From an uncultured Thioclava sp. (lineage in GTDB: Bacteria > Pseudomonadota > Alphaproteobacteria > Rhodobacterales > Rhodobacteraceae), in assembly GCF_913064665.1 (NCBI RefSeq), contig NZ_CAJYBT010000015.1, forward strand, positions 1 to 64,000: DNA of 64,000 nt, written 5' to 3'. Below the pieces are notes generated by a model. That model saw only the letters and a list, made by a program, of their open reading frames with translations, made no database searches and was not told where the DNA came from. The position numbers and the translations under genes were made by a program. Positions 15,164 through 52,659 of this stretch are shown one piece after another (position 1 is the first letter of the stretch; every line of letters begins with the position of its first letter).

Positions 15164-16333
<1,170 letters not shown>

Positions 16334-44282: not shown

Positions 44283-45167
44283 TCAGCGCCCACTGCTCAG
44301 CAACTGGCACAAACGATCAAGGTCATCAAGATCGCTATAGCTGATCACCAGCTTGCCTGACCCCACATCATTGTGGTCGATATTGACCTTCATACCAATT
44401 GTAGCAGAGAGATCTCCCTCCAAAGCCCGGGTATCTGCATCTTTCTGGGGCTTCGGTCGCGGGGCCTTCGCCCCTTTTTCGGGTTTTTTCGCCAAACGCT
44501 CGACGTCGCGAACCGACAGCGACTTTGCAACCGCTTGGCGCGCCAATGCCACTGGGTCATCTGCCGTAATCATCGCGCGTGCGTGCCCTGCCGACAACTT
44601 ACCCTCTCGCAGCATGTCGCGGACCTCTTCAGGCAGCTGCAAAAGCCGCATCAGGTTTGCGATATGGCTTCGACTTTTCGACAGCGCTTCAGCCAGCTTT
44701 TCCTGCGTATGCCCAAAGCGATCCATCAATTGACGATAGGCTTGCGCCTCCTCAAGCGGATTGAGCTCTGCGCGTTGAATGTTTTCGATGATCGCAACTT
44801 CAAGCACTTCGGTGTCGTCGAAATTGCGAACAATCACTGGCAATTCGTGCAAGCGTGCCATCTGCGCCGCGCGCCAGCGCCGCTCACCCGCGACAATCTC
44901 AAAATGATCAGGTTTCTTGGGGTGTGGGCGCACGATCAGCGGCTGAATGACGCCTTTTTCTCGGATAGAGGCTGACAATTCCTCCAACGCGCCCGGCTCA
45001 AAGTCTCGCCGTGGCTGATCGGGATTGGGCTCCAGCCGCTCAATCGGAATATATTGCTCGGCGCGTCGCGGCGCATCCTCGGACACAGCCGGGTTCAGAT
45101 CGACATCCGCCATCAAGGCAGACAAACCCCGGCCCAATCCCCGACGCTCATTTCGCTTCTCGGCCAT
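44283..45167 (-). CDS. parB: Chromosome partitioning protein ParB
   Basis: ParB binds parS, slides as a CTP-dependent clamp, and segregates origins. The 294-residue product has the N-terminal RRGLGRGLSALMAD, the ParB/Srx CTP-binding motif VIQPLIVRPHPKKPDHFEIV near residues 74-93 and AGERRWRAAQMA near 94-105, the HTH region LAEALSKSRSHIANLMRLLQLP, and a C-terminal dimerisation domain with Lys-rich KPEKGAKAPRPKPQKD before it. Two parS sites are in the upstream genes. The parA gene lies three bases upstream. Confidence 0.97.
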   Translation of the reverse strand: MAEKRNERRGLGRGLSALMADVDLNPAVSEDAPRRAEQYIPIERLEPNPDQPRRDFEPGALEELSASIREKGVIQPLIVRPHPKKPDHFEIVAGERRWRAAQMARLHELPVIVRNFDDTEVLEVAIIENIQRAELNPLEEAQAYRQLMDRFGHTQEKLAEALSKSRSHIANLMRLLQLPEEVRDMLREGKLSAGHARAMITADDPVALARQAVAKSLSVRDVERLAKKPEKGAKAPRPKPQKDADTRALEGDLSATIGMKVNIDHNDVGSGKLVISYSDLDDLDRLCQLLSSGR

Positions 45168-45170
45168 GTC

Positions 45171-45986
45171 TCAACCCCCTCGTTTCGTCGCCTGATGGCG
45201 CGCAACCAATTCCTGACCCAGCGCACGATACGCCACTGCCCCGCGCGAACTGCTATCATAGCTTAGCACTGGCATAGCGTAAGAGGGCGCCTCGGATACG
45301 CGGACGTTTCGCGGGATCATCGTACGAAAAACCAGCTCACCCAGAGTGGCGCGCGCATCCGCCTCAACTTGTTGCGACAGATTGTTGCGCACATCATACA
45401 TTGTCAGCACAACACCCTCGATCCGAAGAAAGCGGTTGGCGCTTTGACGTATCTCACGGATCGTCAGCATCAGCTGGGAAAGGCCCTCTAGCGCAAAGAA
45501 TTCTGCCTGTAAGGGAACAAGAACGGAATGCGCCGCAACCATTGCATTCACCGTTAATAGGCTGAGCGAAGGTGGGCAATCAATCAAGATATAGGCGAAT
45601 TCAAAGGGATCTATGTCTGTATGTCGTAGGGCATCATGCAAAAGAAAGCTGCGCTTTTCCGTTGAAACGAGCTCCATATCGGCGGACGAAAGATCTGTCG
45701 TCGCGGGACAAAGAAAGAGGTTCTCAATATCTGTCTTGCGAATGACGGACGCAATCGGCGCATCTTCGAGCAGCAACTCATAGGTGCTCGCATCGCGATC
45801 ATCGGCCTCAACGCCCAGCCCGGTCGAGGCATTCCCCTGCGGGTCCAGATCGATCAGAAGCACCTTTTCACCAGCCTCAGCCAATGCGGCCGCCAGATTG
45901 ATTGCGGTGGTCGTTTTACCCACCCCTCCCTTCTGGTTTGCGATTGCAATTATTCGAGGATCGCTTGCGCGAATTGGATCAGACAC
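45171..45986 (-). CDS. parA: Chromosome partitioning ATPase ParA
   Basis: ParA is the DNA-binding ATPase that drives origin movement with ParB. The 271-residue product has the deviant Walker [22 protein letters not shown] near residues 12-32, switch [17 protein letters not shown] near 44-59, switch [18 protein letters not shown] near 127-142, and no N-terminal HTH, as in chromosomal (type Ib) ParA. It is eight bases into the 3' end of rsmG. Confidence 0.97.
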
Positions 45987-46605
45987 GCTTTGCTCCGGTA
46001 ATTTTCAGAATGACGCCGTTAGGATCGGTCTGGCTCGACCAAGTCTCAAGATCAAAGGACCAGCTTTCCCGTGCGCTCGCAACCTCTTCTTCCCAGCGCG
46101 CCCCTTTTGGAAATAGCGCAACGCCCCCTTTTGCGAGGTGAAGCGCAGAAAATCCCAGCAATTTCGGGAGAGGCGCTAAGGCGCGTGCGCTCAGAACATC
46201 ACAGTCAAGCCCGCTCATTTCTTCGATTCTCTCGGCCTCGACGCGCGCAGAAAGCCCTAACTCGCGGATCGCTGTCATCAGAAACGCCGCTTTCCGGTGA
46301 TCCGATTCGACGAGGGTCACGGACAGATTTGGCCGCTTTTCCTCAGCCAATATTGCGATTATGAGCCCGGGAAACCCTGCGCCCGAGCCCAAATCCGCCC
46401 ATGACCGCCCCGTTTCCGATGCCAGAGCAAATATCTGCGCCGAATCGACAAAGTGGCGGCTCCAAATTTCCGATAGCGTTGTTGCGGAAACCAGATTGAT
46501 CGCCTTGTTCCATTTTACGAGCAGCGTTTCTAGCTTCTGCAGGCGCTCCAATGTTTCACGTGAAACATCGAATTTCGCTTGAAATTGCGCCGACGCGCCG
46601 CTCAT
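45979..46605 (-). CDS. rsmG: 16S rRNA (guanine527-N7)-methyltransferase
   Basis: RsmG (GidB) methylates G527 of 16S rRNA. The 208-residue enzyme has SAM motif [20 protein letters not shown] near residues 69-88, [20 protein letters not shown] near 99-118, and [21 protein letters not shown] perfect parS site is embedded in codons 13-18 (DVSRET). It overlaps mnmG by four bases and parA by eight. Confidence 0.95.
46552..46567. promoter_or_regulatory. parS site 1
   Basis: TGTTTCACGTGAAACA is a perfect 16 bp palindrome equal to the conserved ParB-binding sequence. It lies inside the rsmG coding start, about 5.3 kb from the origin. Confidence 0.95.
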
Positions 46606-48473
46606 GCAATTTTGTCCTTCTTTGTCTGACGGAGCTTTGCCAGCAACAGCGTCAACGCAGCGGGCGTCACCCCATCAACGCGCCCCGCTTGCCCAAGCGT
46701 TTGCGGGCGCGCTGCTTCAAGCTTTAGCTTGAGCTCATTCGAGAGGCCCGTAAGCCCGTCATAGTCGAAATCCGCTGGAATCGCCCAATTCTCATCACGC
46801 TTAATTGACGCGGCATCACGTTCTTGGCGCGCTGTATAATTAGCGTAAAGCGCATCCTTCGCAAGCTGATCGCAGATTTCCGGTGGGATGTCTGCCAAGC
46901 TTGGAAGAGCGTCTTGGAGCTGATCCATCGAAATGTCCGGGAACGATAATAGCTGCAGCGCACTACGTCGCGTCCCATCCTGAGTGACACGAAACCCCTT
47001 CGCCTGCGCCTCTGTTGGACTCAACGAGATCGCCTCCATCAGCAACCGCCCCGCCTCCAGCGCCTCAACCTTACGTTCAAACATCTCCTGCCGCCCCGCC
47101 CCGACGCAGCCAAGAGCGATCCCAAATGGGGTCAGCCGCTGATCGGCATTATCCGCGCGCAGCGAAAGACGGAACTCAGCGCGAGAGGTAAACATCCGAT
47201 AAGGCTCACTCACCCCACGCGTCACCAAGTCGTCGATCATCACGCCGATATAGCTATTTGTGCGGCTGAAATGTGCCGGCTCCTGATCGCGCACGGCTAG
47301 TGCGGCATTCAAGCCCGCAGCCAGCCCCTGCGCGGCGGCTTCCTCATATCCGGTTGTGCCGTTGATTTGTCCCGCAAGGTACAGCCCGGGAAGCTCACGC
47401 AACTGTAGTGTCAAATCAAGCGCGCGGGGATCGACGTAATCATATTCAATCGCATATCCCGGTTGCAGAATTCGCGCCTGCTCCAACCCATAAATTGAAT
47501 GAACATAGGCTTCCTGCACATCGCGCGGCAACGAGGTCGAGATCCCATTCGGGTATACTGTATCGTCTTCAAGCCCTTCTGGCTCAAGGAAAATTTGGTG
47601 CGACGTCTTATCTGCAAACCGCACGATCTTGTCTTCGATTGAGGGGCAATATCGCGGGCCAACACCTTCAATATGACCGCCATACATCGCCGATTTATCC
47701 AAGTTTTCCCGAATAATATCATGCGTTTGCTCGTTCGTATGGGTAATCCCACATGATATTTGCCGAACAAAAGGCCGTCGATTTTGAAACGAAAACATCG
47801 TTGGGTCATCATCGCCCGGCTGGCTTTCCAGACGGTCCCAGGCAATCGTTTTACCGTCGATCCGCGGCGGCGTTCCTGTCTTCAGCCGACCAAGCGGCAA
47901 GCCCAATGCCTTCAAACGCTCTGCCAATGCGCGCGACGGCTTATCGCCAATGCGCCCACCCGGCTGCCTTTGATCACCGATATGGATCACGCCGTTCAAA
48001 AAGGTGCCCGAGGTCAATATAGCGGCCGCGCCCCGAAGGACGGACCCATCCGCCAGAACGACTCCGGCCACACGACCACTCTCGATAACAAGGTCCACAA
48101 CCTCGCCTTCGATCACATCCAAATTTCTCTGCGCTGCCGTCAGTTCCGTGATTGCACGACGATAAAGCGTGCGGTCCGCTTGGGCACGTGGCCCCTGCAC
48201 CGCAGGCCCCTTACGTCGATTGAGCAGCCGAAACTGAATTCCCGCGCGATCTGCGGCTTGTCCCATGACTCCATCAAGCGCATCAATCTCGCGCACCAAA
48301 TGGCCTTTTCCAAGCCCGCCAATCGCCGGATTGCACGACATCACCCCAAGCGAATCCGCGCGCAAAGTCACCAGTGCCGTCACAGCACCGACGCGTGCCG
48401 CCGCATGCGCTGCCTCTGTGCCGGCATGCCCGCCACCAATAACAATGACATCGTAATGTTTCACGTGAAACAC
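46602..48473 (-). CDS. mnmG: tRNA U34 carboxymethylaminomethyl modification enzyme MnmG
   Basis: MnmG (GidA) works with MnmE to add the cmnm group to U34 of tRNAs. The 623-residue flavoprotein has the FAD motif [20 protein letters not shown] near residues 9-28, [21 protein letters not shown] near 46-66, [21 protein letters not shown] near 153-173, and [19 protein letters not shown] near 243-261. Its first six codons (MFHVKH) are formed by a parS site, a pattern known in other bacteria. Confidence 0.97.
48457..48472. promoter_or_regulatory. parS site 2
   Basis: A second perfect TGTTTCACGTGAAACA palindrome covers the mnmG start codon region, about 3.3 kb from the origin. It is the same sequence as site 1, 1.9 kb away. 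Confidence 0.95.
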
Positions 48474-49792: not shown

Positions 49793-51064
49793 TCAGCCGT
49801 TCATCGAGTCAAAGAATTCGGAATTTGTTTTGGTTTGTTTGAGCTTGGAAATTAAGAACTCTACCGCGTCAGTCGTGCCCATCGGATTCAGGATGCGCCG
49901 CAGCAGATAGGTCTTTTGCAGATCTTTCTGATCAACCAACAGCTCTTCTTTCCGGGTGCCGGATTTCAAGATATCCATCGCCGGGAAGACGCGCTTGTCA
50001 GACACTTTGCGATCCAGAACGATTTCCGAGTTACCCGTGCCTTTGAATTCCTCAAAGATCACTTCGTCCATCCGCGAGCCGGTATCGATCAGGGCCGTCG
50101 CGATGATCGTCAACGAGCCGCCCTCTTCGATATTACGTGCGGCACCAAAGAAGCGTTTCGGGCGTTGCAAGGCGTTCGCATCCACACCACCGGTCAAGAC
50201 CTTACCCGAGCTTGGCACAACGGTGTTAAACGCGCGCCCCAGACGGGTAATCGAATCGAGCAGGATCACGACATCGCGCTTGTGTTCAACCAAACGCTTG
50301 GCCTTTTCGATCACCATCTCGGACACCGCAACGTGGCGTGTCGCCGGTTCATCAAAGGTCGAGGACACAACCTCTCCCTTCACCGACCGCTGCATGTCCG
50401 TCACCTCTTCAGGACGCTCATCGATCAGAAGCACGATCAAATAGCATTCCGGGTGATTGGTTTCGATCGAATTGGCGATATTTTGCAGCAGCACAGTCTT
50501 ACCCGTGCGCGGCGGCGCTACGATCAACGCACGTTGACCTTTGCCGATCGGCGCGACCAAATCGATGATACGGGCCGAACGGTCCTTGATCGTCGGATCT
50601 TCGATTTCCAGTTTGAAACGCTCATCAGGGTAAAGCGGCGTGAGGTTATCAAACGCCACCTTATGACGGGCTTTTTCCGGCTCTTCGAAGTTGATTTTCT
50701 CAACTGTGGTCAGTGCGAAGTAACGTTCGTTTTCGCCGGGCGCGCGGATCACACCTTCAACGGTGTCCCCCGTACGCAAGCTGTATTGGCGGATCATCTC
50801 GGGCGAGACATAAATGTCATCGGGACCCGGCAGATAGTTCGCCTCGGTCGAGCGCAGGAACCCGAACCCGTCTTGCAGAACTTCCAAAACACCGTCACCG
50901 CCGATATCCCAATCATCTTCGGCATGCTCTTTAAGAATCGAGAACATCATCTCGCCCTTGCGCATGGTCGAAGCGTTTTCGACATCCCATTCTTCCGCCA
51001 AAGCCAACAGCTCTTTCGGGCTTTTCGCTTTGAGATCAAAGAGATTGAGGCGGGTTTCGCTCAT
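49793..51064 (-). CDS. rho: Transcription termination factor Rho
   Basis: Rho is a hexameric helicase that ends transcription of untranslated RNA. The 423-residue product has the N-terminal [20 protein letters not shown], the RNA-binding cold-shock fold ([19 protein letters not shown] near residues 66-84), Walker [21 protein letters not shown] near 179-198, Walker [17 protein letters not shown] near 263-278 and the Q-loop/secondary site [21 protein letters not shown]. No long insertion is seen. The 136-base upstream region holds a small hairpin, CACGGG (51088-51093) with CCCGTG (51100-51105), possibly part of autoregulation. Confidence 0.98.
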
Positions 51065-51200: not shown

Positions 51201-51665
51201 TTAGAATTTCACGATCACCGACAGAACGATCACGATCATAAACACCGTCGGCACCTCGTTCATCATCCGATATTGCCGCCCGGTTTTAGCACTATTGCCA
51301 CTGGCAAGCGCTTTGCGCTCTTTGGCGCACCACATGTGAAACCATGTCATCCCCAGCACTGAAACCGCCTTGGTCCAGGGCCAGATGCTTGACCAATCCA
51401 CAATCCCCGGTGTGAAAACCAACATCAGACCAAACAGCCAGCTCGCGATCATCGACGGGTTCATGATCGCCTTGAGTAACAAGCGCTCTTGATGCTGAAA
51501 CAGCTTATCCATGTCAGAGCCATGCACCACGCCCTGCTTTTTAAGCCCCTCAACGTGATAGACATACAGCCTTGGCAAGTAAAACAGCCCAGCCATCCAA
51601 GTGATGATGGACATCACATGCAAAGCCTTGATCCACGGATACCAGTCGCTCAGGAAATTGGTCAT
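51201..51665 (-). CDS. hemJ: Protoporphyrinogen IX oxidase HemJ
   Basis: HemJ oxidises protoporphyrinogen IX to protoporphyrin IX in the inner membrane. The 154-residue protein has four predicted helices and the conserved features WIKALHVMSIITWMAGLFYLPRL at the N-terminus (His near residue 16), HGSDMDKLFQHQERLLLKAI near 48-67, and the last segment RMMNEVPTVFMIVIVLSVIV. It is the gene immediately left of the origin. HemJ and hemH together supply the last two steps of protohaem synthesis. Confidence 0.95.
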   Translation of the reverse strand: MTNFLSDWYPWIKALHVMSIITWMAGLFYLPRLYVYHVEGLKKQGVVHGSDMDKLFQHQERLLLKAIMNPSMIASWLFGLMLVFTPGIVDWSSIWPWTKAVSVLGMTWFHMWCAKERKALASGNSAKTGRQYRMMNEVPTVFMIVIVLSVIVKF

Positions 51666-51689
51666 GTCGCCTCCAGGTCACAGGCCTCT

Positions 51690-51719
51690 TCTTAATAAAT
51701 AAATATAGATATTGAAAAG
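51690..51719. other. AT-rich candidate DNA unwinding element
   Basis: The stretch is nearly all A and T and lies next to the hemJ start, at the left edge of the box cluster. A second, weaker AT-rich stretch lies at 51811-51872. Confidence 0.5.
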
Positions 51720-51747
51720 ATGATGATGATGTAGGCCCTGTGGACTA

Positions 51748-51756
51748 TGTGGATTA
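51748..51756 (-). promoter_or_regulatory. DnaA box, one mismatch
   Basis: TGTGGATTA on the plus strand, that is TAATCCACA on the minus strand, against the consensus TTATCCACA. Confidence 0.7.
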
Positions 51757-51772
51757 ACAGTTTGTTCAGGGC

Positions 51773-51781
51773 TTTTCCACA
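51773..51781 (+). promoter_or_regulatory. DnaA box, one mismatch
   Basis: TTTTCCACA, one change from TTATCCACA, 16 bases after the first box and in the opposite orientation. Confidence 0.7.
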
Positions 51782-51879
51782 GGAACGTGGATCGGGATAA
51801 GTGCTGGACTGACTTTTTTCGAGAAGACAATAACCTATTGATGATAAAAGACATTTAACGTGTTTTTGAGATCTATTCC

Positions 51880-51888
51880 TGTGGATAA
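51880..51888 (-). promoter_or_regulatory. DnaA box, perfect
   Basis: TGTGGATAA, the exact reverse complement of TTATCCACA, directly right of the second AT-rich stretch. Confidence 0.9.
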
Positions 51889-51949
51889 CTCTTGGGATGG
51901 ATTGTGGAACGCGGCGTTTTCACACATCCTCGCGATCCTGAGTTCCACA

Positions 51950-51958
51950 GGTGGATAA
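51950..51958 (-). promoter_or_regulatory. DnaA box, one mismatch
   Basis: GGTGGATAA, one change from TGTGGATAA. It abuts TTCCACA (51943-51949), giving a small inverted pair. Confidence 0.65.
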
Positions 51959-52051
51959 TCTGCGTGGATCGTCCGTGGAACACGACGAGATGGTGGAGAA
52001 CTTCGTCAAACCCAGTTATGCCCAATTCCATCCCTAGGGTTTCACATCGGG

Positions 52052-52060
52052 TTATCCACA
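52052..52060 (+). promoter_or_regulatory. DnaA box, perfect
   Basis: TTATCCACA lies five bases before the maf start codon at 52066, so DnaA binding here could also affect maf expression. Confidence 0.9.
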
Positions 52061-52065
52061 TAGTC

Positions 52066-52659
52066 ATGAACATCCTGCTTGCCTCTGCATCCGAGATCCG
52101 CGCGCAACTTTTACGCAATGCCGGGCTGATCGTTCAGGTCCTGCCCGCCCGCATCGACGAAGATGCGATCCGCCAAGGCCTTGAGGCTGAAGCGGCGCGT
52201 CCACGTGACGTTGCCGATCTGTTGGCAGAAATGAAAGCCGCCAAAATTTCGGCCAAAGCACCCGGTCAACTTGTACTGGGGGCGGATCAAGTGCTTGAGT
52301 TGAAGGGTGAAATCTTTACAAAGCCCGTAACTCCTGATGACGCCCGTGCCCAATTGCGCGCGCTTAGCGGTCAGACCCATAAATTGCTATCTGCGCTTGT
52401 CGCGATCCGCGATGGCGAACCGCTTTGGCGCCATGTCGCAGAGGTGCGCCTTACTATGCGCCCGCTTTCCGATGGCTTCATTGACGCCTATGTTGAACGC
52501 AACTGGGAGAGCATCCGTCACGCCGTTGGCTGCTATAAGCTTGAAGAAGAAGGCGTGCTGCTTTTCTCTCGCATCGAAGGCGACTATTTTGCGGTTCTGG
52601 GCCTGCCCCTGATTGAGTTTCTCAACTGGCTAAGCGCACGAGGAGAGCTGAGCACATGA
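52066..52659 (+). CDS. Maf-family nucleoside triphosphate pyrophosphatase
   Basis: Maf proteins hydrolyse non-canonical or modified NTPs. The 197-residue product has [18 protein letters not shown] near residues 4-21, [21 protein letters not shown] near 67-87 (metal-binding Asp), [16 protein letters not shown] near 98-113, and [18 protein letters not shown] near 146-163, where family members usually have GxAG. ATG 52066 follows a DnaA box. The stop overlaps aroE by four bases. It is the first gene of the right arm. Confidence 0.92.

Follow-up and report, generated by a model that had tools for sequence, protein, structure and literature searches.

A predicted chromosomal replication origin between hemJ and maf in Thioclava, with a variant of the unwinding motif

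The hemJ–maf gap and the Caulobacter-type origin

In the text available from PMC1914354, the origin of Caulobacter crescentus (Cori) is placed between hemE and COG1806, and five CtrA sites are reported within it. For the Rhodobacteraceae, the available excerpts describe origins predicted by Ori-Finder in 101 strains (PMC6699656) and OriC1 of R. sphaeroides (PMC6315104). At the level of single elements, the basal unwinding system (BUS) is presented in the accessible part of PMC8287927 as paired DnaA boxes, a GC-rich region of about 4 bp and trios of consensus 3'-GAT-5', minimally NAN, and the accompanying rule places tandem boxes (with up to two and up to four mismatches) within 16 bp of the trios (PMC8287927).

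The locus described here is the 400-bp intergenic gap between hemJ and maf in the window, the whole 64,000-nucleotide stretch of contig C15 that was analysed, from a 94-contig draft assembly of 3.72 Mb (Table 1). We predict with high confidence that this gap serves as oriC, the origin of chromosome replication, in this Thioclava species because it combines a cluster of DnaA boxes, low-GC stretches, conservation among relatives, adjacent parS and parAB, a change of fourfold-site skew and a Caulobacter-type gene order. The assignment is a prediction that very probably holds, its position and layout being kept in most relatives, and for a draft genome it would pin the origin down to 400 bases. 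We treat the organism as a Thioclava, since its HemJ shares 96% identity with the Thioclava indica protein and the named matches that follow come from other Thioclava. The two perfect parS sites lie 5.1 kb (46552) and 3.2 kb (48457) from the gap on the hemJ side, with parAB within 8 kb, and a parS pair occurs at similar distances in the relatives G013, G004 and G001, all three complete or nearly so. The dnaA and hemE genes of the same draft genome are carried on separate contigs, C62 and C5, respectively.

Table 1. Coordinates of the predicted origin, its elements and its neighbours in the window
Feature	Position	Strand	Remarks
parB and parA	44283..45986	-	Named from translations by reading
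parS, perfect (TGTTTCACGTGAAACA)	46552..46567	.
parS, perfect	48457..48472	.
rho, syntenic marker	49793..51064	-	Pfam Rho domains
hemJ (UPF0093), left flank	51201..51665	-	Pfam PF03653
Predicted oriC, hemJ–maf intergenic gap, 400 bp	51666..52065	.
AT-rich stretch 1, proposed duplex-unwinding element	51684..51733	.	24% GC; lowest-GC sampled 50-mer in window
DnaA-trio-like tract, GATGATGATGATG + TAG	51719..51734	+	3'->5' from boxes: GAT GTA GTA GTA GTA G
GC spacer, 4 bp, GCCC (CCCG from boxes)	51735..51738	.	Sequence
DnaA box, 2 mismatches (TAGTCCACA)	51739..51747	-	First of head-to-tail pair
DnaA box, 1 mismatch (TAATCCACA)	51748..51756	-	Second of pair
DnaA box, 1 mismatch (TTTTCCACA)	51773..51781	+
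AT-rich stretch 2	51816..51880	.	28% GC 50-mers from 51816-51831; poorly conserved in near-relative alignment
DnaA box, perfect	51880..51888	-
Palindrome TCCACAGGTGGA	51944..51958	.	Conserved block in near-relative alignment
DnaA box, 1 mismatch	51950..51958	-	Overlapped by palindrome
DnaA box, perfect	52052..52060	+	Ends 5 bases before maf ATG (52066)
maf, right flank	52066..52659	+	Pfam PF02545

The gap shares with Cori and the hemE-COG1806 origins, as far as the available descriptions go, the placement of rho and hemJ on one side and of maf, aroE and dnaQ on the other, a boxed gap of about 400 bp and parAB nearby. Unlike Cori as described there, it is flanked by hemJ and maf, with hemE on C5 and the COG1806-like gene not at the gap, and it contains neither an exact CtrA site nor an exact IHF consensus. 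Box count, a local GC minimum and parAB nearby, which are the criteria given for the Ori-Finder predictions in the accessible text, are all found here. In the parts of the literature searched, hemJ–maf was not found named as an origin site.

The region upstream of rho was read in 20 outgroup genomes from 17 other alphaproteobacterial families. Both hemJ and hemE were found in all 20, and the order rho-hemJ-hemE-maf-aroE in 19. Between hemE and maf, 12 of the 20 carry three or more boxes clustered within 500 bp, and in three of the four outgroups whose ORFs were read, a protein that we take to be COG1806-like stands between the boxes and maf. The module of the gap, tandem boxes followed by a CTAC-type tract and an AT-rich run, recurs beside hemE in several outgroups. 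The outgroup order hemJ...hemE...maf-aroE thus brackets the position of the Caulobacter-type origin, so that the Rhodobacterales gap is most simply read as a Caulobacter-type origin from whose surroundings hemH, hemE and the COG1806-like gene have gone. It would be a case of an origin that stayed put while its classic marker genes departed.

DnaA boxes, AT-rich stretches and their conservation

DnaA boxes were scored by their mismatches to TTATCCACA. Within 313 bp of the gap there are five boxes, in both orientations, that deviate by one base at most (two being perfect), which agrees with the two perfect and at least three near-perfect boxes of the original prediction. The weaker match listed there (51739–51747) is also present, with two mismatches on the reverse strand, and abuts the box at 51748, while the maf-proximal box ends where it was said to, 5 bases ahead of the maf ATG. 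Against the five boxes in 313 bp, order-1 simulation of 64-kb sequences (200 runs) gave a maximum of three, and three was likewise the maximum among 20,000 simulated 400-mers with the composition of the gap. The window as a whole contains 16 boxes with at most one mismatch versus 5.68 expected, a total reached in 0 of 100 shuffles, and its densest 400 bp elsewhere hold two.

Perfect boxes number 21 genome-wide, versus 14 for a reversed control pattern, indicating that a lone box is nothing special. Perfect boxes less than 400 bp apart form just two pairs in the genome, one in the gap and the other at C19:60454/60533. The latter pair (C19:60454–60541, 79 bases apart) was rejected as an origin, with only three boxes of at most one mismatch in 4 kb; it comes directly after an ORF that resembles carB by eye. 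No rival cluster was found near dnaA, where the surrounding 4 kb of C62 contain one box with one mismatch.

The two AT-rich stretches were also borne out, as the six lowest-GC 50-mers of the window (sampled every 5 bases) all fall in the gap, with starts at 51681–51691 and 51816–51831 and a GC content of 24–28%. The gap as a whole has a GC content of 44.8% versus 58.9% for the window. It had further been described as free of genes, and the sole overlapping ORF of at least 90 aa (51892–52659, TTG start) is indeed maf read upstream of its ATG.

Conservation was assessed by a HemJ scan of a genome collection, in which the best 80 of 311 loci were considered and gap lengths were taken from BLAST matches extended to the start codon. 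Among these best 80 of 311, the divergent hemJ–maf gap is complete in 78, the other two ending at a contig edge before maf; together with the window, this gives 79 gaps of 385–506 bp (median 409). At least two boxes are present in 75 and at least three in 60 of these 79 gaps (best 80 of 311), with tandem reverse boxes in 64, a mid-gap reverse box of at most one mismatch in 36, and CCACANGTGG, from the palindrome at 51944–51958, in 17. In the same set (best 80 of 311), the GAT-repeat pattern occurs in 49 of the 79 gaps versus 0.08 expected after shuffling. Close to the maf start, 65 of the 79 gaps (best 80 of 311) carry a forward box of at most one mismatch; a slightly wider span gives 66, with a distance of exactly 5 bases in 35, and shuffled sequences led us to expect 0.5.

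An alignment of 14 near relatives resolved the conserved blocks as the AT tract, the GAT repeat, the tandem boxes, the TCCACAGGTGGA palindrome and the maf-side box, with a variable intervening stretch. In this alignment TGTGGATTA, at the box of 51748–51756, is kept in 14 of 14 relatives except for its last two bases. At the genus level, a DNA search matched the region in 15 of 16 Thioclava genomes, with one gap per genome; G006 gave no match.

The original prediction had also reported no CtrA-like TTAA-N7-TTAA site. This stands for exact sites, none of which occurs in the 400-bp gap, but one-mismatch forms exist at 51754, 51844 and 51855. Neither GANTC nor the exact IHF consensus was found in the 400 bp. 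Over the 79 gaps (best 80 of 311), exact CtrA sites occur in seven (0.8 expected) and the IHF consensus in 15 (1.9 expected), while GANTC was counted 116 times versus 143.7 expected (sd 10.9). As judged from these sequences, any CtrA control of the origin would be the exception among the 79 gaps (best 80 of 311). A CcrM-like adenine methylase gene (N6_N4_Mtase + RAMA; 15164–16327, reverse strand) lies 35 kb from the predicted origin, yet the gap is without GANTC; its position agrees with the location of ccrM near ori in Rhodobacterales given in the available text of PMC8116508.

Strand asymmetry and alternative readings

Along the chromosome, GC skew was sampled in the three relatives and KOPS-like octamers (GGGNAGGG) were counted in G013 and G004. 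In G013, a complete Thioclava genome of one contig (4,019,144 bp) with the gap at about 3.1–3.6 kb, skew is positive in eight of nine 20-kb samples from 0.2 to 1.8 Mb and negative in nine of ten from 2.0 to 3.8 Mb, and the forward/reverse KOPS-like counts in the same samples are 42/5 and then 4/41. Skew in G004, whose gap lies at 4.245 of 4.268 Mb, is positive in seven of nine samples and negative in eight of nine (KOPS 41/7 and 8/45), and for G001 (CP023454.1), with its gap near 50 kb, the corresponding figures are 10 of 10 and eight of nine. From these samples the origin can be placed only within a few hundred kb around the gap.

For local positioning, raw GC skew was discarded as a locator, being too shallow and pulled by gene direction, and fourfold sites were used instead, with gene direction fitted as a second term and 10 kb on the left compared with 10 kb on the right. 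The fitted skew changes across the gap from -0.167 to +0.080 in G013, from -0.170 to +0.053 in G004 and from -0.215 to +0.004 in the window's own contig; in G013 it is negative again in some bins past +20 kb. In G001 it is negative on both sides (-0.062 to -0.111), with no switch, and the origin of this genome may have moved or the region may have been rearranged. The G001 gap contains no perfect box.

The skew step was then pooled over 20 genomes from 20 other genera, chosen for large contigs from 125 with a HemJ match among 150 searched, on fourfold sites uncorrected for gene direction. The gap in these genera measures 364–423 bp in 16 and 1.3–1.4 kb in two, and is absent in two (G070 and G108). 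Among nine offsets, 5-kb windows place the greatest step at the gap (mean 0.106, p 0.003, positive in 16 of 20). Windows of 10 kb likewise put the greatest mean step at 0 (0.097, 15 of 20), but p is lower at +2.5 kb. No rise of skew at the gap was seen in four of the 20 genera with 5-kb windows and in five with 10-kb windows, and G069 shows the skew change at the gap, yet has no box of at most one mismatch there. Of the results that bear on the GC-skew check proposed with the original prediction, the samples from complete relatives and the fitted and pooled steps at the gap agree with it, but raw cumulative skew has its local minimum off the gap (G013 and G004, +45 kb; own contig, +15 kb) and is still falling at +50 kb in G001.

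The KOPS-like sites suggest the most serious alternative, that the origin lies 12–18 kb to the maf side, where the polarity of KOPS flips (contig position about 64–69 kb), and that the gap is a DnaA-binding region only. In G013 and G004 these sites hold the left-arm polarity to +12.5 kb (5/5) and first turn at +17.7 kb; the sites of the two genomes are nearly identical and count once. The same tendency is seen in the own contig, with a turn between +10.8 and +16.9 kb (C15 62490–68523), and in G001, at about +33 kb. Against this placement, no other box cluster appears in the stretches read, the densest other 400 bp holding at most two boxes in the own contig and one, among those listed, in G013, G004 and G001. 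The fitted fourfold-site skew switches at the gap in G013 and G004, gene direction likewise turns there, and the pooled step is greatest at 0, a lesser step of 0.075 (13 of 20) being seen at +7.5 kb. KOPS are required by FtsK near the terminus, so origin-proximal sites may drift, and the offset may reflect how weakly such sites are constrained so close to the origin. KOPS polarity was rejected as a fine locator, being reliable to a few hundred kb yet displaced by 11–33 kb near the gap, and we consider an origin at the flip improbable.

DnaA is also a transcription factor, and the gap could instead be a DnaA-controlled divergent promoter region for hemJ and maf without any origin. Origin or not, it is a region of divergent promoters, with one perfect box placed where maf expression could be blocked. 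This reading would leave unexplained why parS and parAB are nearby, why the skew changes, why tandem boxes adjoin an AT-rich tract and why the gap coincides with the position of the hemE-COG1806 origin of other alphaproteobacteria, as far as that position is given in the available text, and it is very unlikely. The box at 52052–52060 occupies the position of the maf ribosome-binding site; judging by its placement, it might damp maf expression. That the gap is the origin of a secondary replicon is hardly credible, for although a 94-contig draft does not directly give the replicon of C15, the gap of G013 is carried on a single-contig whole genome of 4.02 Mb, the flanks contain core genes (rho, mnmE/trmE, gidA/B and parAB), the Thioclava DNA search returned one gap per genome, and no repABC-type gene was noticed beside it. 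The reading of the gap as oriC, the original claim of a likely chromosomal origin, is thus upheld, the independent tests favouring it or being neutral except for the KOPS and skew offsets.

A trio-like tract in an unusual register

The original prediction had overlooked that the tandem boxes, the CCCG spacer and GATGATGATGATGTAG together resemble a BUS, with an unusual trio register. Leftward from the boxes, the upper strand reads 3'-CCCG GAT GTA GTA GTA GTA G-5'. A 13-mer of the tract has a single occurrence in the window, as has the full series of tract, TAGG and box in the 3.72-Mb genome. The purine-rich AT tract of stretch 1 is retained in most aligned relatives.

Compared with the BUS of Bacillus subtilis and others, as described in the accessible parts of PMC8287927 and PMC6669920, the locus has the same box pair, 4-bp GC spacer, trinucleotide repeat and AT-rich neighbour, and the strand bearing the repeat has its 5' end directed away from the boxes. 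The two boxes have one and two mismatches and stand behind a 4-bp spacer, inside the limits given for tandem boxes in that text. Unlike the BUS described there, only the first trio is 3'-GAT-5' and the next four are GTA in that register, so that GAT-like trios do not continue in one register; if one base is skipped, the next four become TAG, with A in the middle. Counted in this way, TAG ×4 after the first trio and one base supplies the at least three 3'-NAN-5' trios of the published description, NAN being a weak rule. It is conceivable, though we regard it as rather doubtful, that Rhodobacterales origins use a deviant but functional trio tract, in which a canonical 3'-GAT-5' and an expanded GTA/TAG repeat arose from a shorter, CTACATC-like alphaproteobacterial form.

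Based on the arrangement of these elements, DnaA would load on the tandem boxes at 51739–51756 and, passing over the CCCG spacer, extend along the GAT-repeat tract on its upper strand, and the AT-rich stretch at 51684–51733, to the left of the tract, would then be opened, presumably in that direction. The other boxes, chiefly the maf-proximal one and that at 51880, both perfect, may raise the local DnaA concentration or loop to the core. Helicase loading would come next, and the forks would exit both ways, passing parS and parAB on the hemJ side.

For the Rhodobacteraceae, a practical rule is to seek the origin between hemJ and maf. Finding an origin is ordinary, and the most interesting feature is the conserved variant of the unwinding motif. 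If DnaA tracks the deviant tract, the single-strand code would be looser, or a one-base slip would be allowed, as the BUS authors suspect, in the text available, for origins without standard trios. Because the tract of these origins is conserved yet out of register, it lends itself readily to testing how strict DnaA is in reading its single-strand motif.
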